Assembly: GCA_964036045.1 (NCBI GenBank) | Contig: OZ038395.1 | Coordinates: 7,946,465-8,010,464 of the forward strand | Reading direction: 5' to 3' | Length of the DNA: 64,000 nucleotides | Origin: Eutreptiella sp. 'Long Island Sound 2002' | Taxonomy: Eukaryota > Euglenozoa > Euglenophyceae > Eutreptiales > Eutreptiaceae | Part shown: positions 481 to 28,653 of the stretch, one piece after another | How the letters are laid out: each line of letters starts with the position of its first letter | How positions within the stretch are numbered: the stretch's first letter is position 1 | Notes under the pieces: generated by a model | The model's input: only the letters and a program-made list of their open reading frames with translations | What the model was told of the DNA's origin: nothing | The model's database searches: none | Position numbers and translations under genes: made by a program

Positions 481-3400
481 GTGCGATGTCCGGGGGGGGC
501 GCGAGAAGGCGGTGGGTACGGGCGGGAATTCGGGGGTGAGGGGGGCGGTGCACCGCGAGCGACGGTCGGGGCTGGCCGGGGACGGGAAGCGGGGGGGAGG
601 GCAGCAAAAATGGTCAAACGACCCCCACAACAACCACCACAACCCCCAATACGCCAACTACTGGGCAACGCTAACGCACAAACGGCACATCCCGCCGCAA
701 CCAGCACAGCCCCGGCACACCAACTACTGGGCTCCGCGAACGCGGAAATGACACCAGCAAGAGCACCGGCCGCAGCGGCCGACAGAACGCAGCGACGACG
801 CAACATGCGAAAGGGAGAACGGGTGACTGTCCAGGGCCCCGTAAAGAAACAACAACCCGATGGAATGTCACACGGGGGGGGGGAGGAAGCAGGTGCAGCC
901 GCGCTCCTGCTGCCAACACATCCAGGGGCTTCCATGGCGGCAGGAACCGGATTGAAGAACGAGGAATTGTGGTGGTGTGTCTGACGTTGTGTGGGGCAGT
1001 TCACGTCGTGATGGTTGAACGAGCCCTCAGAACAGGTCGCATGGGGGTACCTCATCCGTCACAGCGGAAGGCGCCCATGGCAATGTCGCCGAAGAGCTTT
1101 TTGTTCGGCCTTCAAAAAAAAGTTGTATTTCAGTGCTCAAAATAAGAGTTAGGGGTCCCGAGTGGTGAATGGGGGCGAATCCGCTGGATAATCCAACGCA
1201 GGTTCAAATCCAGCACGGCCCAATGAGAATTTGTTGCTCTGCAGCCTCGTGCCTTTGTGGTGAGGGTTGGCCCTCAGTATCTGCATCCCTCAGCGCGGGG
1301 AGGGGGGGGGGCCTGCCCGACGGGCCCGCTTCCCCGGACGCATCCTCCATCGCATGGGGGGCCGACGCAGGTACGGCACCAGGGCACACCGAGGGCCAGC
1401 AAGGGGACTGAGGGATGAGCGTGCGATGGAGGGGGGGTTATGCTCCGCTGGCACTGGCACTGTCGCTGGTCTACTGTTTGAGTGCCTGATCCCGGGCACC
1501 CCCGGACCGCAAAAGGATCGCCACGTCCCGCCGATCGCATGCCGCGAGAGACTGCCAGGGCAGGGGCTGCGGGGGGGACAACAGTGGACCGCCAACCGGG
1601 GCTTGAGGGTTGCGTCGCGTGCGATTTCGCGATCCGACGTCGCGCGCGATCTGGGAAGTTACCCCTGGTCGCGTGTGCGGCCACTCGGACTCGGGTGCCC
1701 GGGACGCCCCCGTCCGCTCCGCTCAGGTGGAGGCCCGTGTGGAGGTGCCGGAGGGGCTGCCGGCCGGTCTTTACAGCGGGAGCCTCGTGCTGCGGTACCC
1801 GGGCTATTTCCGCATCCCCGTCAACTTCTCCGTCGTGAACGTCGTCGTGGAGCCCGACACCATCCGTCTGTCGGAGACGGGCTCCTTCGAGCAGTGGGCC
1901 TACCGCCTCACGGCCAACCCCATGCGGGACGTCCTCGTGCAGTTCCAGACCAACGAGTCCGTCGCGACCCTCAGCACCGGCTCCGGCAACGTCACCATCG
2001 CGCCCGCCGTGGCCACGGCGCGGCAGTTCCGGGAGGTGTACCCGAGCACCGTCTTCAACGGCTTCGTCACGGGGCCGCTGGAGACCGAGCTGCGGGTGTG
2101 CCCCGGCCGTGGCGCTCGTGTCCGGCACCTGCCTTCTCCCTGTGCCTAGGCCCCTTGGCCCCCTTCGTGTGGCCTCTTTTCCCATGCATGGTCCTCATGT
2201 CCCATGGTCCACGTTCCCCATCCTATGTCCGTGTGTCCCAGACCGAGGGGGATGGGGTACAGAGGTTTCCACCCAGACTTGCCACTAGCGTCCGCCAGGT
2301 CACGCGTGATCAGATGGAGCCGGGCCCTACTGGGTCCGACACAGGACGCAGCTGGTTCCTACTGAGCTCCGGGTGCGACGGGAGCAGATATTACCGAGTG
2401 GCACATGGTACAGGGCCGATTCCTAATGAAATTCAGTTCCCCTGCCGGACACGAGTGGCATGTCTGGTCCCACCCCTGTGCATGCACCCGACCTTGCTGA
2501 ACAACGTGCACAGGCGGGACTGGGGAGGGAGATGGCCACACACACACACCAGGGCGCTGACCACGGAACCCCCGTGTGGGTGGGGGGGAAGGGACCAAAA
2601 GAAGTTTACCGCCGGTTGGATCCGTAAAGTTTTTGCCGACACGACCCGGCGCACGGAGAACCAGAAACGGTGGGCCCAAACAGCGGCTTGCGGGGCTTCA
2701 TCGTGCGCACACCCGCGGTCACGCGCCATTTTGCGAAACGCTCATCTCAGCGGGGGACCGAGCTCCTTGGAGACCAGACTAGCCGCCAGCGCCCTGCTGG
2801 GGCACTGTGAGACCGAGCGGAGCCCTACTTGGGGGGTGCACTGGACGCAGCTGGATCCTACTGAGTTCCCGGTATGACAGGAGAGGGTATTGCTCGGTGC
2901 CAGGCAGCACACGACCGATTCCTTACGAACTGCCGCTCTCCTCTCCGGAACGCTCAGCACAACATCCTGTCGCGTTGCGCTGTTCCCACACCGTCCGTCG
3001 AATCTTTGCACCGCCCCCGCACCGTTCCTCCCGCCCGCGGTCCCGGTCACGCATGTGTCAGATAAGGTACACGCACGTGTTTGCGGGAGGCTGGACGCCC
3101 AGCACTCACCGAATGCCCCCAGCCGAGCTACTTTGTCGGCGAAGACCGGCCCAGTGAAACCATTCGACCATCGCATGCGATTCACAATTTCTGACGCTGT
3201 TCCTCAGAATTTTGCATCGTTCCCGCACCGTTCGGAACTGCACCGGAAGGTTGTTGTCTCAAGGACGGCCCTCGGGGCCGGCGGGAACCAGCCAACCGCC
3301 GGTGTTTGACCGTCTCGCGCTCCCCTGTGGCCTCCCTCTCCTTCCAGTGCAGCTCAGCCCATGCACCCGCGACCTCTGCCTCTCCAGGCCCGACTGTTCA

Positions 3401-6400
3401 TCCTCGCCGAAGGCGTGCGCTGCGACCGCGACGGGGCGTACAGCTCCAAGGCGCGCATCATCGTGAAGGACGAGGACCACCTCTGCAGTCCCCCCGACTG
3501 CAGCGGCCACGGCCAGTGCGTGCGGGCCTTCACCACCTCCGCCATCATCAGCTCGCAGGACGGCATCTGCGCGTGCGACCCCGACTGGCTGGGCCCCGGC
3601 TGCAGCTACACCTGCCCCGTGTCTGCGAGCGGCGCGATGTGCGGGGGCCACGGGGTGTGCGAGCTCTCGACGGCCGCCGGCGCCTCGTGCCGCTGCAACA
3701 CCAGCACCGCCACGGGCTTCTGGGGCGCCCCCGACTGCTTCGCGTGCGCGCCGGACTACTACGGCGCGGACTGCCAGGTCTACTGCAACGGCTGCAGCGC
3801 GCGCGGCGTCTGCAACTCCAACCCCGGCCCCGCAGACCCGGTGTGCCTGTGCCAGCACGGCGCCTGGGGCCCGAGCTGCGAGTTCGAGTGCCCGGGCAGC
3901 CCCGGCAGCGACCCCTGCTCGGGTCATGGCCAGTGCGACGACGGCGCGTTCGGCACGTATGCCCTTGCGCCGCGTGCCGGTCCCGGTTGTTTGTCAGCCA
4001 GGCTTGTGCTTAGCGTGGGATGGGCATAATTTGGAATGGCAAAGTTCGGCACAACAAAATTGTCTTGTACGACATTTCGCCACCGTATTTAGGGACCGAA
4101 GCCGTTTGTTAAGGTAGCAGATAATATCAAGTATCCAAATGTCAGGAACCAACAGCAATTATCTTGCCATGAGGTAATATCAGCCCCACATGTTGTTCAG
4201 CACCACATCATGTTCAAGGTATGAACCCGGTATTACATACAGGGGGGACACTGATACGCACACGGAAACACAGCGAGGCAGGCTATGGACGGCCTGTGGA
4301 CAGAGGTGCGTGGACAGCAAACACAGTCAAACGACCCCTGCAACAAGCAGCACAACCCCCAATACGCCAACCACTGGGCGCCATTCACGCGCAAACGGCA
4401 CCCCATGCCACATTCAGCACAGCCCCAGCACACCAACCACTGGGCTCCGCGAACGCGGAAACGACACCAGCAAGAGCACCGGCCGCAGCGGCCGACAGAA
4501 CGCAGCGACCCGACGCAACATGCGAAGGGAAGAACGGGTGACCGTCCAGGGCCCCGTAAAGAAACAACAACCAGACGGAATGTCACACGGGGGGGGGGGG
4601 ATTTCGTGGCATTTTGATTTCGCGTGGGAGAAATTTTGCGTTTCAAATTGACCGCGAAATTTCCCACACAAAATTCAGGGTGATCCGCGAATTTCTCGCA
4701 CACACTGTGGACTCTGGCGGGGGTACCACACAAAATCCGCAAAATGTCCCTCAGCGAAATTTGCTTTGTGCCAACGCCCCCCCCCCCCCTCCCCCCTGTA
4801 GGCTCTGGTGGTAGTTGAGTTGTTGAAGGATTGCCTTGTGGCACTTGATGTCCCTGGCTCAATTCTTAGGCCGCAGTTTCCCTGTGAGAATTTGGTGTGT
4901 ACGCTTGTTCTTGTGCCATGATGTGGACATTTTGTCCCAAAATTTGCCGTGGTATTCAAGAATTGGTGCCAAGTTGTCACCGAATTTCGCCATTCTAAAT
5001 CCCCCCCCCCCCCGGTATCTGGGTCCTCTGCGCCCTCCCTTCCACTACTCCACGTCCCTCTGTGTCTCGTGCGGTCGCCCCGGCCTCTCTGAGCCTCTGA
5101 CCCTCTCTCTCTGTGTTCGGTGCCTGCGGCCTCCCGCAGACCTGGTCCCCCTTCCGCGGCGTAGGATCGCACGATGTCTGCCCGCGGTCGGCACTCCACG
5201 CGCACAACCGCTGGCGGCGGGCGTGCGTGTCCCCATGCAGTGGGGGGGGGGGATTGAGGTCCGCAATTTTTCGCAATTTCCCACCCTTTCGCAATTTCCC
5301 GCAATTTACCCGCAAATTTTCGCAATTGGATTGGACCCTCCCTGACCGCAATCCCCCCCACGGGACCGCCGCGCAGTCATGGGGGCCCTCTCCTTCCGCT
5401 GCTATGCGAGTGGCGCTGCGCGGAACTCCGCTGGTGCTGATGACCCATCCACAAGTGGAGGGTCCCCTGCTCAAAAGGCGCACACGGACGTACACGCGGA
5501 AGTGCCCACTGGCATACTCCTGCAACCTTTTGGCGCCCTAACAGAGCCAACCACCAAGGCCTTGTGCCAACCCCCCCCCCCCCACGGAGTAGTCAAACAG
5601 GACAAGTCATCCGGGGGCTCCGTTGACACAACCAAAACACGTTCGGACCCGCAGAGGGTCGGGATGTGCAAGGGCGAGAGGCCCATGGGCGCCGGTAAAG
5701 GGAAACAAACCAAAACCATGGCCTCGTTCCAACCCTCCCCCCCTCGGACGGGACGGTAACGCGACGCCGTGCCGGGATCGGAACGGAGAACACTGCAGGG
5801 GGGGGGGGATCAATGGTCGGTTCCAATAGACTGAATGTCCCCGCCATAGACAATTCCAGCCATTAGTCCTGCAGTACTGCGAAGTCCAATCAATGCACGT
5901 GTCCCCTTCTTGGTTGGGGTGCTCCACTATGTAAAGTACAGTGAGGCGTTTTTTGCGGTTAGCTCTGCGGGTCACTTGAGTGCTTGTCCTTTCTGCCGAC
6001 TCTAAAGAACAACCAGGATCAATAAAATAGCAGTGGTCCATAAGGTGTGGACTGCATTCATTGTACTACTTGCAAACTGACTGCGCCGGGGTGCCGTGTA
6101 GGGGGGCTCGGCGGTGTCGAAGGTGAACCGACCGGGTCAGTACGCATGCGCTGCCGTGGCACACCACGCCTTCCCCCGTTCCCACGCAGGGGCTTCTGCA
6201 ACTGCTCTGCGGACTGGCACGGCGCCGCGTGTGAGACCCCATGCCCCGGTCTACTGACCGGCAGCGTCTGCAGCGGCCACGGCCAGTGCACCGCGGCCAT
6301 GTGCCTGTGCCACGCGAGCTTCCGCGGCCCCGCGTGCGAGAAGCAGTGCCCCGGGCCGCTCGACTCCCCGTGCCACGGCCACGGCACGTGCGACAGCCTC

Positions 6401-9400
6401 GCGGAGTGCACGTGCTTCCTGGACTGGTGGAGCCCGGACTGCCACGCCCCCTGCCCGTCTGCCAATGGCCTGACGTGCGCCGGGCGCGGCACGTGCGACT
6501 GGGGCGCCTACGGCGCCGGGAACTGCACGTGCCTGCCCGGCTACTACGGCCCCGCGTGCGACCAGGAGTGCCCCGGCGGCGCCGGCAACCCGTGCTCCGG
6601 CCGAGGCACGTGCGACGAAGGGAACATCGGCTCCGGCGTCTGCATGTGCACCCTCAGTGGGTACTGGGGGCCTGCCTGTGAGAACGAGTGCCTGCCCAGC
6701 GCCGCGAACCCCTGCAACGGCAAGGGGATCTGCAGCGAGGGCTCGGCCGGGACAGGGAACTGTACGTGCCACATGGAGCGGGGCCTGGGCTTCTGGGGCG
6801 GCGTGGATTGCACGGACTGCATGCCCCTCTACTGGGGCGCCAACTGCGACCAGAGATGCCCCGACTGCAACGGCCGCGGCACCTGCTCTGCCGGGGTGGC
6901 CGGCCTCGGTTACTGCATGTGCAACCCCGGCACATGGGGCAACAGCATGAACGGGTATGTTCTGTTGTTGTGGAGGGGTGGGGCCAGGTGAGGGGAGGCG
7001 GGGCAAGTCAAGGATGAGGGTGATGATGAGGGTGAGGTGAGGTGAGGTGAGGTGAGGTGAGGTGAGGTGAGGTGAGGTGAGGTGAGGTGAGGTGAGGGCA
7101 GGTGAGGTGAGGTGAGGTGAGGTGAGGTGAGGTGAGGTGAGGTGAGGTGAGGTGAGGTGAGGGCAGGTGAGGTGAGGTGAGGTGAGGTGAGGTGAGGGCA
7201 GGTGAGGTGAGGTGAGGTGAGGTGAGGGCAGGTGAGGTGAGGTGAGGTGAGGTGAGGTGAGGTGAGGTGAGGTGAGGTGAGGTGAGGGCAGGTGAGGTGA
7301 GGGCAGGTGAGGTGAGGTGAGGTGAGGTGAGGTGAGGGCAGGTGAGGTGAGGTGAGGTGAGGTGAGGGCAGGTGAGGTGAGGTGAGGTGAGGTGAGGGCA
7401 GGTGAGGTGAGGTGAGGTGAGGTGAGGTGAGGGCAGGTGAGGTGAGGTGAGGTGAGGTGAGGTGAGGTGAGGTGAGGTGAGGTGAGGTGAGGGCAGGTGA
7501 GGTGAGGTGAGGTGAGGTGAGGTGAGGGCAGGTGAGGTGAGGTGAGGTAAGGTGAGGTGATTCCCTGTCCAATACCACGTCCATCACCACCTCCAATGCC
7601 ATGTCCCTGTGCCCGATCCCGCGTCCACTTCCATGTTCAAGTTTATTGACCCCCTTGCCATGAGGTGTCCAAAAACGCCATTTTTCGCTTCTCTGTTTTT
7701 TTTGAGGGGTGCTGCCAAGCGGGGGCCCGCAACGCGGACCAGATACAGGAGCCCGATGGGTGGCGTGGGTGCGGGGGGTGGGTGGGTGAAGATAGAGTTG
7801 TCCAAATGGGCCCCAGTCGCGGCCCCCCACCCCTTCCGTGGAATGCCGGATCACACCACACCGCACACCAGATTCCTCCGCTTGACCAGGGCGTGCGTGC
7901 CCTGCGCAGCGACAGCCACGGCGGTCGTCTGTGTCCGATGTCGAAGAAAGGCCTGGCTTCGCGATTTGCACATCTGCGATTCGCGATTTGGGGTAAGAAA
8001 TGCCCTCGTGGCGGCCCATTGGCCCTTGCTTTGCACGTGGCACCATTATCCGGGTCGCCAAGCAAACAACAATTCTGCGGTGTAGTGTCGTCGCGTTGCC
8101 GGTGCCTGCGTGTGGTCGAGCGTCATCCGGTGTGGCCACCTTGCCTCCCTGTCCACCGCAGGCGGCAGCAATGCGTCCACGACTGCCCCGGCGGCCAGAG
8201 CAACCCCTGCAACGCCCACGGCACATGCTCCGAGGGCTGGGATGGCACGGGCGAGTGCACCTGCGACGCCGATTGGTATGGGCTGGCGTGCCAGTTCGAG
8301 TGCCCCATGGGCTTGTTCATGATCGCCTGCAGTGGTAACGGCCGCTGTGACGACGGTCGCCTGGGCTCCGGCAACTGCACGTGCAACGCCCAATACCGCG
8401 GGCCGGACTGCGGGGCCATGTGCCCCGGGAGCTACGTGGGCACGGACGTCTGCTCTGGCCACGGTCAGTGCGATCAGGTGTGGGGCCCGGGCGCCCGGGT
8501 CGGGTCTATGCCGTGCGTTGAGGGTGCGGAGGGTACGGGGTACGGGGCGGTCCGGGGGCGCAGGGCTGTGGGGGCCCGTGGGCCTGCCACTCCAACCGCA
8601 TGTCAGGGAGGGCCTCGGACGGGGGGCCCGGCCCGGATGACTGCTTTTTTGTGCACCCGGCCCCCTCGCCGGGCCTGAATGACTGAAAAGTTTTCCAAAA
8701 AAAAATTCTACAAAAATTCCCAAAAAATTCCCAAAAAAAGACCTGAGGCACACAGGGGGGGAAAAGGGCATATGGGGGACGGCCCGGACAGCGCGTGGAG
8801 GAACAGGGCACCTGGGCCGCACAGAAACACAGCGAGGCAGGCTATGGACGGCCTGTGGACAGAGGTGTGTGGACAGCAAAAACAGTCAAACGACCCCGGC
8901 AAAAACCAGCACAACCCCCAATACGCCAACTATTGGGCGCCGCTGACACGCAAACGGCACACCATGCCGCATTCAGCACAGTCCCAACACGCCAACTATT
9001 GGGCTCCGCGAACGCGGAAACAACACCAGCAAGAGCACTGGCCGCAGCGGCCGACAGAAAGCAGCGACCCGACGCAACATGCGAAGGGAAGAACGGGTGA
9101 CCGTCCAGGGCCCCGTAAAGGAGCAACAACCAGACGGAATGTCACACAGGGGGGTCCGCTTGGGGGCTCTCTCTCCTTTCTTTTCCTTCGGGCCTGTGAT
9201 CCTCCCCCCCCCCTTCCCCCCCCCCGCCACTGGCAGCTGCCGTTCATGCTGCGCCAACCCGGTGACGCGAAGACCGAACCGCCGTCTGCGCTCCTGTTGC
9301 GCCGCGGGGCACTCCGCCGTGGCAGAGACGGTGCTCTCCGCGCGGGAGGCTGTTGTCGTGTGGATCCCGAATGTGTTGGTGCCACGGCCCGCCACGAATC

Positions 9401-12400
9401 GAGACACAGAATCGGTCGGCCAGCACAGCGGCTTGGGGGGTCTTCGTGCGGAAACGGCCACCTCGTCGATTCACATCGGACATGATCGCATGAGATCCTA
9501 CTGAGTCGGCCGCCGCACGCAGCGCATCCCACTGAGTCCCGGTGTCCAAGCGGGCGGGTATTAGCGAGTGGCACAGGGTACGGGGCTGGTTCGTCGCAAG
9601 CGCAGCCCTGCCCTGCCCCTGTCCCTCGCTCCTCCTTTCAGGACGCGGCGTGCCACTGCTCCCCGAACTTCTACCTCTTCGACTGCTCTGCCGAGTGCCC
9701 GAGGACAGCGGACGGCTACTGCGCCGGCCACGGCACGTGCAGCTGGGGCACCAACGGCACCGGCCTGTGCACGTGCGACGCGGACCACTGGGGCCACATG
9801 TGCGAGTTCCAGTGCCCTGGCCTCGCCCAGGGCAGCGTCTGCTCCGGCCACGGGCGCTGCGAGGACGGCGCCTTCGGCTCGGGCCTGTGCGACTGCGACG
9901 CGAACTACGGCGGCGCGATGTGCGTGAACCTGTGCCCCGGCGGCGCCGACAACATGTGCCACGGCCACGGCCAGTGCACCCCTGAGATCGGCATGTGCTA
10001 CTGCGACTGGTATGCGCCGGGGCTGAGTGTGAGGGCCAACGTGCTCGTGGAGGAGAGGGCGGGCCGGCGCGTGAGGGAGGGGAAGGCCACGGGGTGCAGC
10101 GGCAACTGCTTGTGAAACGGGTCGGGGGGGCGGTTGGGCAAGCGGTTCTGAAAGCGGTTGGGGAGCAGGAGGCGGCAGTTACGCCGCGGTTGGAGTTGGA
10201 AGGATCAGGCCTGAGAGAAGGGCTTGAAGGTGAGGCGATGTCTCAGGCCCGATTTGGTGGCGGCCCACGTTCAGCAACAACGTCGACGAGTGCCCGGCGG
10301 TTGGCGGCGAGTGGAATGCCGGCGAGGGCTGCCCGTTGGCCCCGGGGGGGGGGGGGGAGGGCGTGGGACGGCGTTTTTGGTGCGCCCCGCCGGGGCGTGT
10401 GCGTTCTTGAAGGGGGTTGCGCACCGAGTCGAAGGCAACACGTTCTTTTTGGTTGTGAGTGAGGGGCGAGGCGGGGGTAGGGCGTTGTGCCCCTGTGCGT
10501 TGCCCTCCTTTGACCCGCCCCCCCCCCCCCCCACCGCATCTGGATTCCCCCCACAGGCAGTGCGGATGCCCACAGTAATACAGAGGCCTGCTTGTCATAG
10601 CAGAAGGTTCAAGGGTGAGAGGCCAATAGGCGCCGCCACAGGCTAACAGAGCCAACCACCAAGGCCTTGTGCCAACCCCCCCCCCCCCACCGCCACCACC
10701 GTGTCCTGCGCCCCATTTGGCCACCCTTCGGGGTCAGTGCCCGGATTTGGGCGGTAAACTTGGTTAGCCACTGGGGTCACCGGCGGAAGTTGGGGAGTGG
10801 CCTTGGTCAGGCTTTGGGGTCACTGCCCGCCTTTGGGCGGTCACCTTCCGATGCGAGTGGGGTCACTGCCCTGGGGCCCGCGACACGGACCAGATACAGG
10901 AGCCCGACGGGTGGGGGTGGGTGCGGGGGGTGGGTGGGGATAGAGTTGTCCAAAATGGGCCCCAGTCGCCGCCCCCCACCCCTTCCGTGGAATGCCGGAT
11001 CGCGCACCCCAGATTCCCAGGGCGTGCGTGCCCTGCGCAGCGACAGCCACGGCGGTCGTCTGTGTCCGATGTCGAAGAAAGGCCTGGCTTCGCGATTTGC
11101 ACATCTGCGATTCGCGATTTGGGGTAAGAAATGCCCTCGTGGCGGCCCATTGGCCCTTGCTTTGCACGTGGCACCATTATCCGGGTCGCCCGCAGGGCAG
11201 ACGCTCCCTCGCCGGGCACGCCGGGTGCCGGTCACCGGGTCGCCAACCAACCTTGGCCACCCTGTGGGGCTGTTGCCTGGATTTGGGCGGTAGCACCCGA
11301 TCCTCGACCGCTTTCGGACCAGTAAGTGGCAACCTGAAAATTGCTCTGCAGGGGGGGCCGACATGGACGCCCGCCGAAGGAGGGGGGGGGGTTGGAGAAA
11401 TGGGGTGCCGTGTCGGGCCCTTTGTTTTGTGTAAGAACGGATGTTGGCGCCAAAGGCACAGGAACACAAAATTTGGCCTGAAAATTTTTTTTCACCAATA
11501 ATCCCCCCCCCCCCCCACATTTGAGTAGTCAAAATGATCAGCGCGACGTGGGTATCATTTTGAGCCATAGATGTTGGGTTGACCCTCCCCCCCCCCCCCC
11601 CGGCACGGCAGGTCGGGCGCCCCCGCCCTCAACCTCCCCCTCCCGTCACGGTGGCCAAGGAGGGAGGGGGGGGGGTGGTTGGGAAAATGGGCTTCCGTGT
11701 CACCCCCCCCTCGCAGAGCAATTTTCTTCCTGCCAAGTGGCTGCCGCTCGCGTGTCCGCTCGTCTCACTCGGCCACTTAGTGCGTTGGTTGGCCAACTCG
11801 ATCTGCCGTCCACAGGGGCATGCAGACCGGCTATTGGAGCTACGATGCCAACATGAGCTGCACCGTCTGTATGCCGGGCTACTGGGGCCACAACTGCACC
11901 AACATGGCCAAGTTCTGCCTGTGGGGCACCGTCAGCGACGGCCGCTACGGCGACGGCAACTGCACGTGCCTCAACGGGACCTACGGCGACCTGTGCGACC
12001 ACGAGTGCCCCGGCGGCATGGCCAACCCGTGCAACGGCCACGGCCACTGCAGCGACGGCGTCACCGGCACGGGCGAGTGCACGTGCGCCCCCAACTACTG
12101 GGGCTACGGCTGCGGCAACCCGTGCCCGCTGCTCGACACGCCCTCCGGCGTCTGCAACGCCGGGCAGTGCGACGACGGCGTGAACGGCACCGGCAATTGC
12201 ATCTGCCCGACCTCGTACCGCGGGGTGTTCTGCGAGTGGCAGTGCCCTGGCCCCGTCGGCAACCCCTGCACGGGGCACGGAACGTGCGACGACTACGGCC
12301 TCTGCCACTGCGACAGCGGCTACTGGGGCTTCAACTGCAGCTTCACCTGCCCCGGCTTCGTCGCCCCGGTGGCCAGCGGCGACAACGCCACCGTCTGCAG

Positions 12401-15400
12401 CGGCAACGGCTACTGCGACGACGGCTACATGGGCACCGGCATCTGCCAGTGCCACGCGGCGTACTACGGGCCGAGCTGCGAGAAGGTGTGCCTGTCCTTC
12501 TCTGGCCGTGTGGCAGTTCACTGGGGCGTCGCGCGCGCTGCTGCGTATTGAAAGGAAAGAGGGTAATGGTACATCGTTACATGGGTTCACTTCTGATCTG
12601 TGGCATGGTGTATCCAAGGGCGGGGGTACCTGCACCGCGTGCACCAACCAGACATGCCACTAGCGTCCGGCAGGGCTTCCGGCCTTGTTAGAAATGAGCC
12701 CTATGAAACGCACCACCCAGTAATACTCGCCCCGCTCACTTCCAGAACTGAGTAGGAACCTGCTGCATTCAGTGTATGGCTCAGTAAGGCCTGGGACTCG
12801 CCTGGTTGTGGATGGTTTGGCAGACGCTAGTGGCAAGTCTGGCACCAACACACCGAATCCACGCGTGGAAGATTCCCTCCTCGAAAGGTGAACACGTACG
12901 CCCACCGAAAGTCCCAACCGGCGTTCCTTTCCAATTTTTATGCCCCCCGAATCGGTGGCTCCTGTCCACGTGTGTACTCAGGTGTGCCCGGGCGGCGCGA
13001 CGTCCCCCTGCAGCGGCCACGGCATCTGCAACTCCGGCGCAAGCGGGTCCGGCACCTGCAACTGCGACTACGGCTGGTGGGGCACCGCGTGCGACACCGA
13101 GTGCCCTGGCGGCGCGGCCACGCCCTGCAACTGGCACGGGCACTGCAGCATGGGCGCCAGCGGCTACGGCAACTGCACGTGCTACGCGGACGCCGGCACT
13201 GGGTACTGGCAGGGCGCGGCCTGCGACGCCTGCCAGCCCGGCGTGTGGGGCATTGACTGCCTGAACGTGTGCCCCGACTGCAGCGGCCAGGGCAGCTGCT
13301 TCGACGGGCGCGCCGGCAACGGCTCGTGCGCGTGCGACCGCGGCGTCTGGGGCTACAACTGCGAGTTGCACTGCCCCGGCGGCAAGGCCAACCCCTGCAG
13401 TGGCAACGGGACCTGCGACGACGGCGCCCACGGCACGGGCACGGGCATGTGCACGTGCAACCCCGACTACTTCGGGTGGGCATGCGACCAGGCGTGCCCG
13501 GGCGTCGGCACCGCCGCCGGCGTGTGCAGCGGCCACGGCTCGTGCAACGACGGGGCGTACGGCGCCGGGTTCTGCAACTGCGACCTCGGCTACCGCGGCC
13601 TGGCGTGCGAGCACCGCTGCCCGGGCCCCGCGGGGGTGCCCTGCCACGGCAACGGCATGTGCAACGCGCAGGCCCACTGCGAGTGCGCGTTCGGCTACTT
13701 CGGCGCGGACTGCGCGAACCAGTGCCCCACGGACGCGCTCGGCGGCGTCTGCGGCGGCCCGCACCGCGGCACCTGCCTGGACGGCGCGGCCGGCAACGGC
13801 ACGTGCGTCTGCCACTACCCGTACGCCGGGGCCGCCTGCACGAAGGAGTGCCCGTCGGTGGTTGTGCCGCTCTCGCCGCTGCTGTCGCCGTCGCTGGCGC
13901 CGTTCGGCGGGGTCTGCACGGGGCACGGCACGTGCGACTGGGGCAGCAACCGCACGGGGCTGTGCGAGTGCGACCCGGGCTACTTCCGCCCGGCGTGCGA
14001 CGGGGAGTGCCTCCCCAGCGCCGCGAACCCCTGCAATGGGCACGGCAGGTGCTCTGACGGCCGCGGCGGCACCGGCGTGTGCCAGTGCCACCGCTCCGCC
14101 GGCACGGGCTGGTGGGACGGCCCCGACTGCTACGACTGCGCCCCCGGCTACTTCGGGCCGGAGTGCAAGGGGCTGTGCCCGACCTGCAGCGGGCGCGGCA
14201 TCTGCAACGCCGGCCGGTTCAGCGACGGGTCCTGCACGTGCCAGCCCGGCACGTGGGGCGCCAACTGCCAGCACTGGTGCCCCGGCGCGCCCAACAACAC
14301 CTGCTCCGGCCACGGGCACTGCGACGACGGCAGCACTGGCACGGGCGCATGCACGTGCGACCAGTTCTGGTTTGGCCCCGCGTGCCACGGCTACTGCCCC
14401 GGGACCGCCGAACAGAGTGCGCCGCCCGCGGTGCCGTTTGACCTGACCTTCAACGAGGACTTCATCTTCGGGAGCCCCGAGAACATCCAGGCGTACGTCA
14501 TGGGGCTCGCCGGCGGCGGCATCACCGACCAGGCGCTGACGGTCGGCGGTGGTGCCACGACGACCACCATCGTCGAGTGCTCGAACCACGGCCACTGCTT
14601 CGACGGCTCAACCGGGAACGGCACGTGCGCGTGCGACCCGGGCTGGCGCGGCCCCGGCTGCGGCGTCGCCTGCCCCGGCGTGCTGGCCGGCTACGCGGCG
14701 TGCTACGGCCACGGCACGTGCCTCGCGAACGCGACGTGCGTCTGCGACGCGTCCTTCTGGTCGCCGGACTGCTCGCAGCAGTGCCCGCAGGCCAACGGCC
14801 TGACGTGCGCCGGTTTCGGCACCTGCGACGACGGCGCCCACGGCAGCGGCACCTGCAAGTGCGACGAGGCCCACTTTGGCTTCGCCTGCTCCAGCGAGTG
14901 CCCCGGCGGTCCGTCGAACGTGTGCAGCGCGCACGGCTGGTGCGGCAACGGGACCCTCGGCAGCGGCCTGTGCACGTGCGACTCGGGCTACTACGGCCTG
15001 GACTGCGCCAACGAGTGCCCCGGCGGCGCGGGCAGCGCCTGCTCGCTGCACGGCGCGTGCTCCGACGGGCGCATGGGCACCGGCCTCTGCACGTGCACCC
15101 ACAGCGACACCGGGGGATACTGGGCCGGACCCGCCTGCACCGTCTGCTTGGCCGGGCACTGGGGCGCCGCGTGCACGGGCAAGTGCCCGGCCTGCCAGCA
15201 CGGCTACTGCGACGCGGGCCTGACCGGCACGGGCGTCTGCGTGTGCGACGTCGGCGCCTTTGGGCCGCTGTGCGACGGCATCTGCCCCGGCGGGCAGAGC
15301 AACCCGTGCTCCGGCCACGGCACCTGCGACCAGGGCCGCACCGGGACCGGCGCCTGCACGTGCGTCCAGGATTGGTTCGGGACGGCGTGTTCGACGCGGT

Positions 15401-18400
15401 GCCCGCTGGGCACGAACGGCGACGTCTGCGGCGGGCACGGCACGTGCGACTGGGGCGCCACCGGCACCGGCCTCTGCACGTGCGACGCGACCTACTACGG
15501 CCCGAATTGCGAGAAGGAGTGCCCGAAGACCCTCATCGGCGGCATCGCCTTCGAGTGCAACGGCCGCGGGGTGTGCCAGGCCCCCCAGACCGAGACGTGC
15601 ATCTGCGACCCCCTCTGGTGGGGCTTCGACTGCGGGGGAGGGCCGTGCAACTGCGGCAACGGCACGTGCGACGACGGCGCCTCCGGCACCGGCGACTGCA
15701 CGTGCTTCGCGGGCTTCTTCGGCCCCAACTGCGGCGGCGAGTGCCCCGGCGGCGCAAGCAACCCCTGCTACGGCCACGGCCACTGCAGCCAGGGCGCGAA
15801 CGGCACCGGCCAGTGCACGTGCGACCCCGGCTACTACGGCCCCGACTGCGGTCAGGAGTGCTTCCCCAACCGCACCCACGAGTGCTTCGGCCACGGCACG
15901 TGCCACGACGGCGCGGCCGGCGACGGCGCGTGCACGTGCCACAGCGACGCGGCTTTGGGATACTGGGCCGGCCCTCTGTGCATGGACTGCGACCCGGGGA
16001 TGTACGGGCCGGGCTGCCTCGGCCGCTGCCCCCCATGCGCCGCCGGGTACTGCCTCGACGGCACCGCCGGGAACGGCACGTGCGTCTGCGACTACGGGAT
16101 GTGGGGCGGGCTCTGCGAGAACGAGTGCCCGGGAGGCCGGAACAACACGTGCTCCGGTCACGGGGCCTGCGACATGGGCAGCAGCGGCACCGGGGCCTGC
16201 GAGTGCGTGTACCCGTACTGGGGGCCGGCGTGCCAGCACCTGTGCCCTGGCGGCCAGACGGACACCGTCTGCGACCTCCACGGCACATGCGACTGGGGCG
16301 CGAACGGCAGCGGCACCTGCCAGTGCGACCACGGCTTCCGCGGCACCGGATGCGAGACGCAGTGCCCCGGCCCCATGCACTACCCCTGCTCGGCGGCCGG
16401 GCAGTGCAGCGCGGACGGGTTCGAGTGCGCGTGCGACGCCCTGCGCTGGGGCCTGGCGTGCGAGCACACCTGCCCCGACTGCCACAACGGGTACTGCCAC
16501 GAGGGCAACACCGGCAACGGCACGTGCACGTGCACAACGCCGGGCTGGTGGGGCCCCTTCTGCAACACGGAGTGCCCTGGCGGCGCGGCCACCGCGTGCA
16601 GCGGGCACGGCGTGTGCGACGATGGGGCCACCGGGTTCGGCAACTGCACCTGCGAGGCGGGCTACTACGGCGCGGACTGCAGCCAGACCTGCTTGCCGTC
16701 GGCCGGCAACCCTTGCAACGGCCACGGCACCTGTGACGACGGCAACCTCGGGACCGGCCTCTGCACATGCGACTACTCCGACACCGCGGGCTACTGGGCC
16801 GGGGCGCTCTGCGCGGACTGCGAGCTCGGCTGGTGGGACACCGCGTGCGGGTCGCAGTGCCCGCCGTGCGTCTACGGCGTTTGCTCCGAGGGCACGGCCG
16901 GCAACGGCACATGCCTCTGCCAGTCCGGCACTTGGGGCGCGCTGTGCGCTGACGAGTGCCCGGGCGGCATGGCGACCCCCTGCGGCGGCCATGGCAAGTG
17001 TGACGAAGGCAGCGCCGGCACCGGCGCGTGCACGTGCGATGCGGACTACTACTCGCCGGTCTGCCTGCCGTGCCCCGGCGTCCTCGCCGGGGCGACCTGC
17101 GGCGGCCACGGCACGTGCTACGACACCGCAGCCGGCAATGGGACGTGCGCGTGCGCGCCCGGCTGGCGCGGCGCGGAGTGCAGCGTGCAGTGCCCCGGCA
17201 ACGGCACGTGCTCCGGCGGCGGCACCTGCGACGAGTCCGCCAACTGCCACTGCGACCCTGGCCGCTTTGGGATGGACTGCAGCGGCGTGTGCCACAGCAC
17301 CGCGAACGGCGACTGCAACGGCCCCAGCGCCGGCGTCTGCCACGACGGCGAGCACGGCAACGGCACGTGCACGTGCACGTACGGGTACTGGGGCCTGGGC
17401 TGCGACAAGGAGTGCCGAGGCACCGCGCAGAACCCGTGCAGCGGCCACGGCCTCTGCAGCTCCGGGGCCCAGGGCACGGGCGAGTGCTTCCAGTGCGACC
17501 CCGGCCACTACGGCGCGGACTGCGGCAGCCCGTGCACCGGCAGCGGCCCCGACGGCGTCTGCAACGGCCACGGCCGCTGCTTCGACGGCCCGCACGGGAA
17601 CGGGTCCTGCGCGTGCCTCAGCGGCGAGGAGACCGGGACCTGGGCCGGGGCGGCCTGCACCGACTGCGCCCGCGGCTTCTACGGGCAGAACTGCACTGGC
17701 GAGTGCCAGACCTGCAGCGGCCAGGGCTACTGCCTGGACGGCCGCCAGAGCGACGGCTCCTGCGTGTGCGACCCCGGCCTGTGGGGCCACAACTGCGAGT
17801 ACGACTGCCCCGGGGGCCGCGCGAACGTGTGCTCCGGCCACGGCGTGTGCGACGCCGGCAGCACGGGCGCCGGGACGTGCACGTGCACGCCCGGGTCCGG
17901 GCACTGGTACCCCGACTGCAGCCAGCAGTGCCCCGGCCTCAACGAGACGGGCCAGGCCTGCAGCGGGCACGGGCAGTGCGACGAGGGCAGCACCGGCACC
18001 GGGACGTGCACGTGCGACCAGAACTGGGGCGGCGCGGCCTGCAACCTGCCGTGCCCCGGGATGGTGATCGCGCAGAGTGCAGGGTTCACCGGCGGCGTGT
18101 GCTACGGCCACGGCACTTGCGCGACCAACCCCGTCCCCGCGTGCACGTGCTTCGACACGTACTACGGCAGCGACTGCTACCAGGAATGCCCCGGCATCGT
18201 GACCGACGGCAACGGCCGGGACGCCTGCAGCGGCCACGGGCAGTGCCACGACGGCAGCGCCGGCAACGGCACGTGCGCGTGCGACGTCGGCTACGCCGGG
18301 GAGGACTGCGGCAAGGCCTGCGCGCTGGCGGCGGACGGGTCGATCTGCGGCCACGGCTCGTGCGCGGACGGCGCGGGCGGCTCCGGGCTGTGCACGTGCG

Positions 18401-21400
18401 AGCCCGGCTGGTGGGGCCCGGCCTGCGACCAGGAGTGCCCCGGCGGGTACCTGGACCCCTGCAGCGGGCACGGGACCTGCTCCGAGGGCCGCCGCGGCAA
18501 CGGGTCGTGCACGTGCTACGCCGACCCCCGCTTCGGGCACTGGAACGGGACCGACTGCGGCGTGTGCCTCGCGAACTACTCCGGGATGCTCTGCGACCAC
18601 GCCTGCCCGGCCTGCGCGCGCGGCCACTGCGACGACGGCCAGACCGGGAGCGGGCGGTGCGTGTGCCCCGCCGGGACGTGGGGCGTGCGGTGCTCGAAGG
18701 ACTGCCCCGGCGGCCTCGGCAACGTCTGCTCCGGCCACGGCCTGTGCGACGACGGCGACATGGGCACGGGCAACTGCACGTGCCAGGCCGGCTACTGGGG
18801 CCACGCGTGCCAGGGCAAGTGCGAGGGCATGATCGGCAACAGCACCGTCTGCCACGGCCACGGGCACTGCGACGACGGCATCCTCGGCACCGGCACGTGC
18901 GCCTGCCACTTCGCGTTCCGCGGCCCCGGCTGCGGACAGCCATGCCCGGGGCCGATGGAGCAGCCGTGCCACAACAACGGGATGTGCACCAGCAACGCGA
19001 CGTGCGAGTGCCTGCCCGACTACTTCGGGCGCGACTGCAAGGGCAAGTGCGAGTGCGAGCATGGCACGTGCAACGACGGTGCGGCCGGGAACGGCTCGTG
19101 CACGTGCGACCCCGGCTACTACGGCGTGGAGTGCGATGAGGAGTGCCCCGGGGGCGCGGACGACCCTTGCTCCGGCCACGGGCTGTGCGACGCGGGCTCC
19201 GCCGGATCCGGCGTTTGCGCATGCGACGCCGGGTGGTGGGGCGAGGACTGCGGCAGCGAGTGTCCGGGCGGTGCCTCAACGCCGTGCAAGAACTCTGGCG
19301 TCTGCTTCGACGGCAGCACTGGCAACGGCTCGTGCGCCTGCTACATCTCCGATACTCGAGGTCTGTCCCTGACCCCCCCCCCCTGCCCCCACCACCACCA
19401 AAGAAGGCAAAGCCTCTGCGGTGTTTTGCTTGTAGCGTATGCGCATGTTTGTACCCATGAACCAGCCATGACTCTACCCCTGACTCAACCCATGACTCAA
19501 CCCACTCTTCCCATTGACTCTACGCATGACTACCCCTGACTGCCATGACGAAATTCAACCTGTGACCACCCACGCGTTGGAAAAATTGTTTGGTTGGAAA
19601 GGTTTTTGGAAACGTGCAGGGGAACAATCACCAAACATTGGCATTTCCCCCCACTTTTAAGTGTGTGACCATTGGCGACCGGGTGCCTTTCTGTGGGGAA
19701 CAGCTGCACGGAGCGCAATGAACATTCCTTCCTCAGGCAGGCAGAGGCACATCATATGTTCCAATGCACACACGTGAACACAAACACACACACATGCACA
19801 CCCCATTGAGAAGTTGGAAAGAGATGGGCGCTTTTCGGGTGCCTTACTAGGCATTTAAGGGCCGATCCAGCCGGGCGCTTCTGCGGCCTGCTCCTCCTCC
19901 TCCTCTCCCCCCCCCCCCCTCTCTCCCTCCCTCTCTGTTCTGTTGCCTGCTGTGCGCACCGTGTTTTGTGTGTTCGTGCGTGCCCATTGAAGCCTTACAA
20001 ACCAATCGTCAGGTTACTTCGAGGGCGGTGCCTGCGAGAACTGCCTGCACTTGTACTTCGGCCCTTCATGCAAGAACAAGTGCGACGACTGCAACGGCCG
20101 CGGCGACTGCAGCTGGGGCAAGCGCGGCACTGGCCAATGCACATGCGAGCCCGGCACCTGGGGCCGCTACTGCCAGCACGACTGCCCCGGAGGCAAAGAT
20201 AACGCCTGCTACGGACACGGACAGTGTGACGATGGACGAGATGGCAAGGGTGCGTTTGCTGCCTGCACCCGCTCCTGTCAACAGGGCAGAGGGCACGCCG
20301 GAGACACGCACTGGCTTCGGCAGAGTCAGGGCGGAAGTATTGGTGACGGCAGGACAGCAGCCGGAGACGCAGGCGGAGAACCAGGCATCACGGCACGTGC
20401 TTGAAGCCCCCCCCACCCCCTCCCCCCACTGTCTTTGGTTGACAAAAACTGTGACGGCAGAACGTGGACAATCGATAGAGCTGAGCACAGGTGAGCAGAG
20501 GTGCCTCCATCTGAACCCACTGTAAGTCTCCTGACGAAGATATGATGGGTAGCAAAGACTCCAACGGGACCGAGCACCTGCAGTTCGAGAACACCGATGC
20601 CCTGTGTTGAATGTGTTTTGCACACACACACACACCCCATCGCCCGATGTGTGCAATCGTTCTGCGAACAAATGGTACATTGTTTGACCTCCCTGTTTGA
20701 ACTTTGCAGTCGAGCATGGGGCCAGGACCACGCTGGTCACATGAAAATTTTGACACCATGGCCCCCCTCGCCCCAGCAGCTTGTGCCAACCCCCGAACGC
20801 GCCAACCATTCTGCAACCGCCAGACCGTCACCCCTCCCCACAGAAGGCCCTATTTGGCCCCCATACCCCCCAGACGCAATTGGATTCAGTTTTTGCACTC
20901 TGTGAGGGTACGTTAGCGCGCCGGGCACGTGCCGGGCGCCAGGCAAAGTTTTCCCACGCTTTGGTCTGGCCCCTCGAGTTGGGGTTAAGGACTCCCACTC
21001 TTCGGTGTGGCCACTTGAGTGGTCCGTCACGCGCAAGAGGGGGATTCTTTGATTTTGAGGTTGGTGGCCATGATGGGGCCTACAAGGGAGGGGTGCACGT
21101 GATCGTCCCGGTTTTTGGGCGAGAAAATGGGAATTTAACTGATCGCCAACAGTCATACAATGTACTTGTGCGTAGCGTTCCTGGGCTAGAGGAGGGAGTG
21201 ATGTTTGGGGGTAAAGCATTGTGATAGATGGCGGGAACATTCATTTGGGTGCCGGGCGCGCGCCGGGCAAACGCACCCTCTGTGATGCTTCACGTGCTTG
21301 TTGGTCATTCAATTCACTCAATTTCTCCCAATTGAATTCATGTCAGCCCCCTCCCCCCTACCTCATTATGCCTTGATGGCACACGCACCCCAACCGCATT

Positions 21401-24400
21401 CCGGCCACCAGCAACCGCTTTGGCCACCATCTTTGAAACCCCCTTTCAGCCTGTGTGCCCCTCTGCCTGCGTGCCCCATCGCACACATGGCATTTCTCAG
21501 GGACCTGCACCTGCGAGGACGACTGGTGGGGCTCTGGCTGCAACAAAAAGTGCCCCGTGTTCAAGGAGGACGTGTGCGCCGGCAACGGCCTCTGCTCCGA
21601 TGGCGCCATGGGCTCCGGCAACTGCAGCTGCGTGTACGGCTGGACGAGCCGAGACTGCTCTGTGCCGTGCCCGGGGCTGCTGGAGGCCGGCTGCCCATGC
21701 CACGCCCACGGGATGTGCCACGCCGACGCCACCTGCACGTGCGACCCCGGCTTCTGGGGCCCGGCGTGCGGGAAGGCGTGCCCAGCCAGTGCCCGCACCG
21801 GGAACGTGCCCTGCTCTGGCCCCGGCCGCGGCACGTGCCACGACGGCGCGGCCGGCAACGGCACCTGCACGTGCGAGCCGGGCCACTACGGCCAGGCCTG
21901 CCACAGGGAATGCCCCGGCGGCGCCGCCAACCCGTGCAGCGGCTTCGGGCGGTGCGCGGACGGCGCCAGCGGCTCCGGCGTGTGCCTGTGCGACCCCGGC
22001 CGCACCGGCGACATGTGCGAGATCTGCATGGACGGCCACTTCGGCCCCACCTGCCAGGAATGCCCCGGCGGCGGCGGCGTGGGCGCGTGCTCCGGCAACG
22101 GCGACTGCGACGACGGCTTGAGCGGCAGCGGCGTGTGCACGTGCGACGAGGGCTGGGGCGGCGTTGCGTGCGACGTGGAGTGCCCCGGCGGCCACCTGAA
22201 CCCGTGCACCGGGAAGGGCCAGTGCAGCGATGACGGGCTCACGTGCGCGTGCGTCTCCGGCTTCGCCGGCACCAACTGTTCGATTGAGTGCCCGGGGCTC
22301 CGCGTGACCGACAGCCGCGAGGCGCTCTCGTTCTGGGGCGGCGGCAAGCCCGGCGTCGCGCTGAACCTCGCGGGCTGCTGCGCCAGCGAGTACGACCCCG
22401 TGACGCCGCAGTCTTGGCACCAGGCCTTCGACATGCACGTGCGCCGCTTCTCCAAGCCGCTGACGGCCTTCGAGCACTACGCGCATGCGACCCCCGAGGG
22501 CGGCATGCTGTTCGCGCAGGACTACCGCGACGGCAAGGCGCACGCGTCCGGAGACTTCATCTCCCCGTGCGGGAACTACGACGCATGGGGCTCCGACGTC
22601 GTTATGCGGCTGACCATGGGCGAGGTGGTGGACTACATCCGCCCGCGGTCGGGCCTGAACCTCTGTGAAGTGCTGACGTCGAACGTGAACCATCTCTGGT
22701 CCGGCGTTGAGGAGGGCCCCTTCGAGACGCCTGACTACTACACCGAGGTCGATTGGGTCCTCGGTGGCTCCGCCCGTGGCTGGCCCAAGGCACGGCTGCT
22801 GAAGCAGCCCGAGGGCATCTCATTCAAGGTACCGCAGCTTTGGCTTTTCCTTGTGTTTAAGTTTGTGGTGTGTTGTGCTGTGTTGTGTCGTGTGGTGAGG
22901 ACGCGTGTTGCAGCCGTGAGGAAGGGCAGGCACGGGGAGGCCGGGTCGAGCGACGGCCATCCCGATAGGACACACCCCTCCTCTCCCCTCCCTTGGCTCT
23001 GCCTCAGGTCGTGTGCGGCGGCGTCGGGACCTGCAACGACGGCAACACCGGCGACGGGACCTGCACGTGCGACATGTCCGGCCACTGGCTGGACCTGCCC
23101 ACCGCGCCCTGCAGCGCCTGCCAGCCCGGCTACTGGGGCGTCAGCTGCAACCTCACCTGCCCCGTCTGCGAGAACGGCGGCGTGTGCGACGAGGGCGTCC
23201 TCGGCACGGGCGAGTGCCTCTGCCAGCCCGGCTACTGGGGCCCGACCTGCAAGGGCGAGTGCAAGCCCGCGCTCGACAACATCTGCCACGGCAACGGCAT
23301 GTGCCTCGACGGCAGCGGCGGGTCCGGCGCCTGCGTGTGCGACGGCGGCTGGAAGGGCCGCTACTGCGACCAGGAGTGCCCCGGCGGCTTCGCCAACCCG
23401 TGCCACGGCCACGGCACCTGCGCGCTCCAGTCGGACCAGCAGGGCGCCGACGGCGCGGCGGCGGTCTGCACGTGCGAGGGCGTCTTCTACGGCCCGGCTT
23501 GCGACATGATCGCCGACGAGCCGCTCGGGCAGTGCCACCACTACACCCTCGACGGGACGCTGTACCCGGAGATGACGCCGGGGTCCCCGGCGATGTTCGC
23601 GGCCGCGCCGCTCGTGTACGAGGCGGCGCCGAACGGGCGGGCGGCGAAGTTCACTGGGGCTGGAACCGGGGCGTTCGCGACTCCGGTGGATTACAATTAC
23701 CTCCAGGTGTGGTCTTGGGCGGTGAAACACTCATTTGGGGGGGGGGGGGGGGGGACTCCGGCATGGACGGCCTGTGGACAGAGGCGCGTGGACAGCAAAA
23801 ATGGTCAAACGACTCCGGCAACAACCAGCACATCCTCAATACGCCAATTGTTGGGCGCCGCTGACGCGCAAACGGCACATCCCGCCACATTCAGCACAGC
23901 CCCGGCACACCAACTACTGGGCTCCGCGAACGCGGAAACGACACCAGCAAGAGCACCGGCCGCAGCGGCCGACAGAACGCAGCGACCCGACGCAGCACGC
24001 GAAGGGAAGAACGGGGGACTGTCCAGGGCCCCGTAAAGGAACAACAACGCGACGGCATGTCACACAGGGGGCACTCCGGCCCCCCAAAATAATGGTGGGG
24101 TGGGTGTGGGAAAGCGTGACTGAGCAGTACTTTGTGTAAAAAAAAAAAGGCCTTTTTGTGCCAGCCTTTTACTGTTTTTTACTGTTGGAGTGTGCTGGGC
24201 GGTAGGTACAAGCTCATTTTGCATCTTTGAAAGTGTGGGGGTGGTGGTGCCCCCAGACGTCGTTTCTTTTGTATGGGTGGAGGGATCTCAATGGGTTTTG
24301 TAGCCTCCTCTCAGCAGATCCATGACAGGAGGGGAGAAAAGAAGACCCTGATGACCTGGGGGCGCCCGGGACTCCTCATCAGGTTTTCCTCATTCAGGAG

Positions 24401-27400: not shown

Positions 27401-28621
27401 TCCCCTGTCGTTCAAAAAGCCGACTCATGACTCAGGCTCAGACTCAAGCGCGAGGAGAGGGCAGAGGCAGGGCATCCGGTTGGAGGGGGGGGCGCATGAG
27501 AGGCGCCTGGAGGCGCTCGGTGGGGCAAGGGCAAGGGTAAGGGCAGGGGCAGGCGTACACACAGGGACAGGGAGACAGGGCTGTGGTGGGGTCGAGGGAG
27601 AAGCAGAAAGGGGCACATGGTACGGGACGCGCGGCTTGGGGCAGGCGGGTGCTGATGGCATCCCAGGCTCAGGGCTGCGCCCCCCCTCCCCCCGTCCTCC
27701 GCATTCTCAGGTACGACTTCGGGTACTTGCTGAGTGTCACGGATGAGGACAGCCCCGACGGCGGCTTCTATGCGCAGATCCGCATCGGCAACGGCCCGTT
27801 CATCCGGCTGCAGAAGCAGACGCACTTCCACACCGCCATTCAGCCCGACACTTGGCATTACGTGACCGGCATCTTCAGCTCCGCCAGGTCTGCAGGGCAG
27901 GCCTGGCGTTCGGGGAGGCGTTGGCCCATGAGCTGTGTTTTGCCTGTGGCACATGTCTTCTGCTTTCACGGAGGGTAGCCTCAGGCGTGTGGCTTGCCGC
28001 CGGCGGTGGGTTGATTGTCAACGGATGCCAGTTGGTCCGTAACCGATGTAACTGGCGGCTCTTTGACGTGCAGGCACGCCGGATTCCAGGAGAGCTTGTT
28101 CCTGTTTCAGTAAGAACTGCCCACCACCTACACGTACCAACAGCTGAACGTATCGATAGGACAGGCGCTATGGGGACAGGGCCTGTGAGAGGTGACCCCG
28201 CATCCATCGCATCCCCATCCCTGACTCTGTGCTGCCTCAGGTCGACCGGGGACCAGATCGGGACTCTCCACGCATGCGTGGACGGCTCGTGCTCGTCGTC
28301 CCCTGTCCTCTCGGATGACATTCTCGGGTACCGTGCGGGTACTGAATTCCAAGTCGGAGGCGCTCTGGGCAAGGTGCGTCATCCCTCTGCACAGCGATCC
28401 CCCCCCCCCCCCCCAGGGAGCGGAGGTGTCCGAGGGGCTGACAGGAAACGTGCACCGCCTAACCGGGGAGCAAGCGCAGCAGCTAAAGGCGGCGGCGAGC
28501 CCGAGCCCAAGCCTACCGACCCCGGCGCCCAACCCGACAGACGCGCTGACCGTGGGGTGGGCGAGCAGCGGGTCCCGCCCAGCCGGGGGGCTCCATCATG
28601 CTCTGCCGGTATCGTGCTCGC

Positions 28622-28653
<32 letters not shown>

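Follow-up and report, generated by a model that had tools for sequence, protein, structure and literature searches.

The 64,000-nucleotide stretch of the Eutreptiella sp. 'Long Island Sound 2002' genome analysed here (contig OZ038395.1, positions 7,946,465 to 8,010,464, or C18:7946465-8010464 in our numbering; hereafter the window) is GC-rich eukaryotic DNA and carries a long array of EGF modules whose order repeats every seven modules. We read it as the middle of a gene for a giant extracellular protein, in which an EGF rod arose by tandem duplication of a seven-module block and which probably forms a membrane-anchored spacer or adhesive fibre; to this reading as a whole we assign a probability of about 0.75. 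A first-pass annotation of the same DNA had proposed that the array grew by duplication of a seven-EGF block. This growth is well supported by the sequences, namely by the grouping of modules according to register (the place of a module within the seven), by the one-to-one orthology of blocks 9–11 between genes, and by whole-block copies in paralogs, where the unit is five modules long.

The seven-module period

Nine exons (A–I, 3388–23706; Table 1) can be spliced into one open frame of 3777 codons in which every boundary is GT-AG. The frame encodes 84 EGF modules, numbered from the exon at 3388, of which the first 77 precede a breakdown of the order. Modules were counted by a parser combining profiles with cysteine spacing, and the degenerate module 17, whose neighbours on both sides are clear, was positioned manually. 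On this recount the spacing stays seven. The positions listed in the first-pass annotation are exact throughout, with long, eight-cysteine modules at 2, 9, 16, 23, 30, 37, 44, 51, 58, 65 and 72, and modules with a short C3–C4 interval at 6, 13, 20, 27, 34, 41, 48, 55, 62, 69 and 76. The chance that 11 of 77 modules all fall into one class modulo 7 is about 1e-12. One additional long module, 81, lies past the globular domain that follows the array, and modules 5, 16 and 80 are additional short ones.

Two further features follow the same period. A C1–C2 spacing of at most two residues (CPxC type) is found in modules 3, 10, 24, 31 and so on to 73, module 17 being degenerate, and also in 42, 49, 70, 76 and 82. 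An arginine shortly before C6 occurs in 9 of 11 modules at position 5 but in only 5 of 55 modules of the remaining six-cysteine registers. The order within a block is ordinary, long eight-cysteine, CPxC, ordinary, ordinary with arginine, short, ordinary. The ten long-to-long distances average 291 residues (range 275–336), somewhat above the roughly 280 residues per turn or segment of a rod first suggested. The array had been placed at 3388..20249 with six introns inside; its start and the six introns agree with the spliced model. Its end does not, since module 76 occupies 21668–21769 and the array reaches 22279, with the period gone after module 77.

The period also appears independently of these markers. 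Similarity by lag was computed with gap and cysteine positions excluded, and mean identity at lags 7, 14, 21, 28 and 35 was 40.5, 38.8, 39.6, 39.4 and 38.7%, hardly decaying, as compared with 32.4–35.7% at lags 1–6 and 8–13. The mean BLOSUM score within registers was 1.876, while 10,000 permutations gave 1.526 (standard deviation 0.024, highest value 1.649). For 34 of the 77 modules the best match lies in the same register, where 10 are expected; it lies exactly seven modules away in nine cases and in the adjacent module in none. When each block in turn was left out and its modules were assigned to registers, 59 of 77 assignments were right, as against 13, 5, 13 and 15 in four shuffled orders, with registers 2 and 6 right in 11 of 11 cases. 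Module n therefore resembles n+k more than its neighbours at a fixed k of 7 and through eleven blocks, which is the mark of a super-repeat. That the period is a counting artefact of the choice of motifs has a practically negligible probability. A cruder mod-p survey, which loses modules, did mask it in the window array, giving a top 'period' of 20, but the profile and cysteine recount, the marker-free similarity, the permutations and the shuffled-order controls all keep it.

A module tree built on 33 columns, poorly resolved with 8 of 74 inner branches starred, required 36 changes of the register label, compared with 52.4 for shuffled labels (0 of 200 as low), and 62 changes of the block label. 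Clustering is strongest for registers 4 and 6 (as low in none of 500 shuffles), followed by register 2 (7 of 500), and is weaker for registers 3 and 5 (41 and 51 of 500). The expectation of the first-pass annotation that module n would group with n+7 and not with n+1 is borne out in that modules group by register and not by neighbour, and fails for the two registers, 1 and 7, that do not cluster. It is conceivable that each register was fixed separately by functional selection, for example for a ligand-binding module at every seventh place, without any block duplication, and register-specific residues beyond the length markers do exist. We consider this very improbable: register 4, which lacks a length marker, is still most like its own kind (mean 2.69 within the register), as common descent expects, and whole-block copies are directly seen in the paralogs described below.

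Paralogs, homologs and the age of the blocks

A complete block (modules 50–56; Table 1) used as a query against the 2.28 Gb assembly of the same genome (2205 contigs) found at least 15 places, the window included, and four paralogous arrays were read besides the window. The first, C11 (C11:6480841-6528699), is a single open frame that runs uninterrupted for 15,953 codons and contains no N; it has 200 parsed EGF modules, with Sushi and VWA domains ahead of the array. It begins with ten blocks of the order long, CPxC, ordinary, short, ordinary, continues with about a dozen of the order long, CPxC and three ordinary modules, and then passes into counterparts of window blocks 9–11. Both five-module arrays recur, in unchanged order and with other copy numbers, in C15 (9527 codons, 233 modules) and C2 (4470 codons, 109 modules), the frames of which stop inside the array. 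C14 (at least 8335 codons, 63 modules of mixed types) has an ending like that of C11, both closing with counterparts of the seven-module blocks of the window and the same domains after them.

Whole-block tandem copying is directly visible in these paralogs, with a five-module unit. Neighbouring units are 98.4–99.8% identical in C11 (597 or 612 nt), mostly 83–99% identical in C15 (597 and 609 nt; one low value of 62%) and mostly 96–99% identical in C2 (one low value of 59%). The coding frame of the five-module arrays is under constraint, the ratio of nonsynonymous to synonymous substitution rates (dN/dS) being 0.14 in C11 and 0.17–0.59 in C15 and C2, where the comparison was ungapped and some copies were probably out of step.

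The seven-module blocks are older. Within the window they are 41–55% identical to one another, cysteines included. Two database proteins, P0001 and P0003, were compared with them. P0001 equals the last 2415 residues of the C11 frame (99.96% identity); it is a paralog in the same genome, which rules it out as an ortholog from another species. The best match of P0003 among 41 loci compared in this genome is 42% identical. In a tree of the blocks of the window, P0001 and P0003 (those of C14 lie outside it), blocks 9, 10 and 11 each form a group of their own across the three proteins, with branch support of 98/96, 89/94 and 98/93. This one-to-one grouping means that the blocks were already distinct before these genes split. 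P0003 aligns collinearly along the window at an offset of 53, where the mean score is 128.7. The seven runners-up, scoring from 104.4 to 94.8, are all separated from this offset by multiples of seven, and among the eight best offsets of P0001 seven share one class modulo seven. Window profiles assigned the correct register to 21 of 24 P0003 modules, one of them scored after excision of its insert. Tested each alone, neither P0001 (p 0.15) nor P0003 (p 0.86) shows a significant period, so that their register is shown solely by alignment to the window. The Pfam domains of P0003 include Laminin_G, TIG, REJ and a C-terminal Laminin_G, and collinear exons extend in the window up to 39646. C11, C14 and P0003 thus share with the window gene both a collinear C-terminal architecture and block-for-block orthology, as members of one family. 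Two inserts were seen in modules of register 5: module 33 (14395–14553) contains one without a name, and module 15 of P0003, the counterpart of window module 68, contains an F5/8 type C domain.

The five-module paralogs raise the question of the original unit. An ancestral block of five modules (2-3-4-x-1) could have received two modules once, between registers 4 and 1, and then been duplicated as seven. Five-module blocks indeed dominate the arrays of C11, C15 and C2; scored against the full window profiles, their positions 1, 2, 3 and 5 come out highest as registers 2, 3, 4 and 1. The N-terminal blocks of P0001, which is part of C11, also have five modules. We nevertheless think this origin unlikely. 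The counterparts of blocks 9–11 contain seven modules each in the window, C11, C14 and P0003, from which it follows that seven-module blocks predate the split, and the five-module arrays are the young ones. In addition, only one of the two arrays has a fourth module with the short spacing, which looks like the loss of a different module in each, with the caveat that this module is ambiguous by profile: register 1 comes first in both arrays and register 6 is a close second in the short type.

Other EGF arrays were surveyed among 120 listed homologs, of which 38 had at least 30 parsed modules and entered a lag test. Named matches among those listed include Bodo saltans, Diplonema papillatum, animals, Naegleria and a metagenome-assembled genome of Myxococcota. 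The Euglena-style transcript P0045, whose label EG_transcript would stand for E. gracilis, matches the present genome at 47% identity at best and comes from a different one. Identity is mostly about 30–36%, the arrays mix long and short modules, and TIG is often part of the architecture. A significant lag (corrected p < 0.01) was found in 12 of the 38, at 15 and 16 (three homologs each) and at 10, 13, 6, 3, 4 and 7 (one each), which indicates super-repeats of other sizes in related EGF giants. Lags of 15–16 belong to the ENA proteins P0002, P0008, P0012, P0015, P0019 and P0020, several of which show roughly the pattern L.L.L?.s.L?.LLLL, a second super-repeat of larger size. For this survey the lag statistic replaced the mod-p period statistic, which loses its phase as soon as one module is missed and did not recover the period of the window array.

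Such diversity bears on whether the period matters at all. It might be a passive record of unequal exchange without mechanical or binding role, in which any block length works. Block lengths of five and seven among the paralogs, the mixture of both in C11 and C14, copy numbers that vary among paralogs and the lags of about 15–16 in other homologs would all fit, and we give this explanation a real, if minority, chance of being right. Against it, exactly seven modules have been kept through eleven blocks of only 41–55% identity, where random single-module gain or loss over such a time would blur the count. In nearly all of the window, C11, C15, C2 and C14, moreover, the module after a long one is of the CPxC type.

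Proposed mechanism, role and known parallels

We propose that a whole block of seven teneurin/tenascin-type EGF modules was duplicated in tandem repeatedly, most likely by unequal exchange and at least partly before the gene family split. Each block would afterwards have diverged with its registers still recognisable, and sister genes would hold young arrays of a related five-module block. In the array, each of the unusual module types (long, CPxC and short) would recur about every 290 residues, perhaps together with a bend or a binding site. Laminin_G, TIG and REJ-type domains appear to follow the array, and this domain content, together with one candidate membrane span, suggests that the protein is secreted or membrane-anchored and acts as a long spacer or adhesive fibre of the cell surface. 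The first-pass annotation also suggested that the array may form a periodic rod; an AlphaFold2 model of two blocks (557 aa, alignment of five rows) had a mean predicted local distance difference test score of 58 and a predicted template modelling score of 0.26.

Several observations weigh against the reading proposed here. The young paralogous arrays are five-module ones, and recent duplication of a seven-module unit was seen in none of the four arrays read. Within the window, module 5 is short as well, and the register-7 modules 42, 49 and 70 bear the C1–C2 spacing of register 3, perhaps through conversion between registers. Registers 1 and 7 are without clustering in the tree (204 and 500 of 500 shuffles as low), and leave-one-block-out assignment was right for only 3 of 11 and 6 of 11 of their modules. 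Individual modules are less reliable than whole blocks: among 27 modules of P0003, only 8 pick out the corresponding window module as their top hit. As to the gene itself, its 5' end lies beyond the window, and no alignment connects the candidate membrane span at 52931..53042 to the EGF array; the span is only presumed to belong to this gene, and several weaker hydrophobic stretches also lie 3' of the last aligned exon in the scan beyond 20 kb.

By profile the modules are of teneurin/tenascin EGF type. The frame of the main exon matches the Pfam families PF23106 (197.4 bits, cut-off 24.3), PF25024 (200.6, cut-off 65) and PF07974 (147.9, cut-off 22.1). The long modules have eight cysteines, yet the laminin-type EGF family PF00053 is not among the matches of this frame at E 0.01, nor is cbEGF (PF07645) among those of the four EGF-bearing frames scanned at the same threshold. 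Teneurins have about eight EGF modules followed by a YD-repeat core. The module type is alike in the window, whereas 77 modules in a seven-module period stand here against the teneurins' eight or so, and no teneurin core domain was found in the 28 window frames scanned. Polycystin/REJ receptors have, after the REJ domain, GPS, PLAT and either a channel or 11 membrane spans. P0003 has REJ, with collinear exons in the window; neither PLAT nor a channel domain was found in 20 window frames scanned, and one outstanding hydrophobic stretch is accompanied by the weaker ones mentioned above. The scan of 20 single open frames between 29.4 and 55.7 kb gave no Pfam match above its cut-off.

Titin is the closest known parallel, by analogy. 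PMC10665226 describes six 7-domain units in the D-zone and eleven 11-domain units in the C-zone of the titin A-band. The titin super-repeat measures about 43 nm and is matched to the myosin filament. The likeness lies in a fixed order of domain types per block in a giant protein, with seven domains per block in one titin zone and eleven copies in the other. Unlike titin, which is built of Ig and FnIII domains inside muscle cells, the present array consists of disulphide-bonded EGF modules, is presumed extracellular and has no known partner lattice. Among protists, secreted EGF-like proteins of the flagella are described for the stramenopile Phytophthora as mastigoneme proteins in PMC12223298; a comparable role in flagellar hairs for the EGF giant is only a lead. 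No paper on an EGF super-repeat was listed in the open-licence library searched, subscription journals being mostly outside its coverage.

Super-repeats are best known from titin, and the same principle appears here in EGF modules of a presumed extracellular protein from a eukaryote with a large genome. Near-identical five-module copies in sister genes make the block-by-block growth of giant EGF proteins visible. One genome contains old, seven-module and young, five-module stages, and the growth of giant repeat proteins is therefore testable, since unit size, rate, constraint and the moment when homogenisation of blocks ends can be read from the paralogs. More tentatively, at somewhat less than even odds, these genes might encode a family of giant surface proteins that owe their length to the number of whole EGF blocks, of five or seven modules, that they carry, the blocks being copied through unequal exchange in huge intron-poor exons and under constraint at the protein level. 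The window gene would be a frozen old branch with seven modules, and C11, C15 and C2 an active branch with five. If so, block number would determine, in a heritable and tunable way, how long a cell-surface fibre is.

Gene layout and other features

The features are collected in Table 1. The introns within 3388–23008 cut modules and registers at varied points and do not follow the block. The globular domain after the periodic array is without a Pfam name, the Pfam scan of its frame giving only EGF-type families.

Table 1. Features of the window and tandem EGF-match arrays elsewhere in the genome
Feature	Position	Strand	Content	Basis or remark
Exon A	3388..3956	+	modules 1-3, first part of 4; long module 2 at 3613-3774	GT-AG, open frame
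Exon B	6190..6954	+	rest of 4, modules 5-9, start of 10; short 6 at 6347-6442, long 9 at 6689-6847	
Exon C	8162..8477	+	rest of 10, modules 11-12, start of short 13	
Exon D	9642..10009	+	rest of 13, modules 14-15, start of long 16	
Exon E	11816..12485	+	rest of long 16, degenerate 17, modules 18-21; short 20 at 12243-12338	
Exon F	12982..19360	+	modules 22-71, start of long 72	6.4 kb, intronless; surrounding open frame 2215 codons
Long eight-cysteine module 23	13102..13260	+	others in exon F: 30 at 14008, 37 at 15016, 44 at 15859, 51 at 16690, 58 at 17533, 65 at 18436	
Short module 27	13618..13713	+	others in exon F: 34 at 14671, 41 at 15520, 48 at 16363, 55 at 17191, 62 at 18052, 69 at 18943	
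Complete seven-module block	16573..17412	+	modules 50-56, 280 aa	genome query
Exon G	20013..20249	+	rest of long 72, module 73, start of 74	
Exon H, first part	21501..22279	+	rest of 74, modules 75-80; short 76 at 21668-21769	register held through 77, then lost
Globular domain	22280..22828	+	about 180 aa	conserved in P0001 and P0003 (tblastn with P0001)
Modules 81-84	23008..23502	+	four EGF modules: long, CPxC, two ordinary	
Further exons	23503..31378	+	counterpart of the Laminin_G, TIG, REJ region of relatives	tblastn with P0003, Pfam domains of P0003
C-terminal exons	36027..39646	+	match to C-terminal Laminin_G part of P0003	tblastn, Pfam of P0003
Candidate single membrane span	52931..53042	+	very hydrophobic, ends YKKV	top hydropathy peak (3.57) in three forward frames beyond 20 kb
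Long tandem arrays, unit mostly ~2262 bp	C21:29.69-29.74, 30.03-30.16, 30.94-30.98 Mb; C11:39.90-39.97 Mb; C12:22.80-22.82 Mb; C4:9.25-9.27 Mb			

Further downstream in the window, a 21-bp minisatellite at 46408–47041 (30 copies, 94% matches) is open in two forward frames and may be the source of weak coiled-coil-like matches in the reverse frame 45359–47134. The minus strand at 60909–63998 carries a pol frame of Ty3/gypsy type (RVT_1, RNase H, integrase) that is open at the window end. Elsewhere in the genome there are other, long tandem arrays with a unit of mostly about 2262 bp, each unit containing one PF00008 EGF match, nearly all of equal score.

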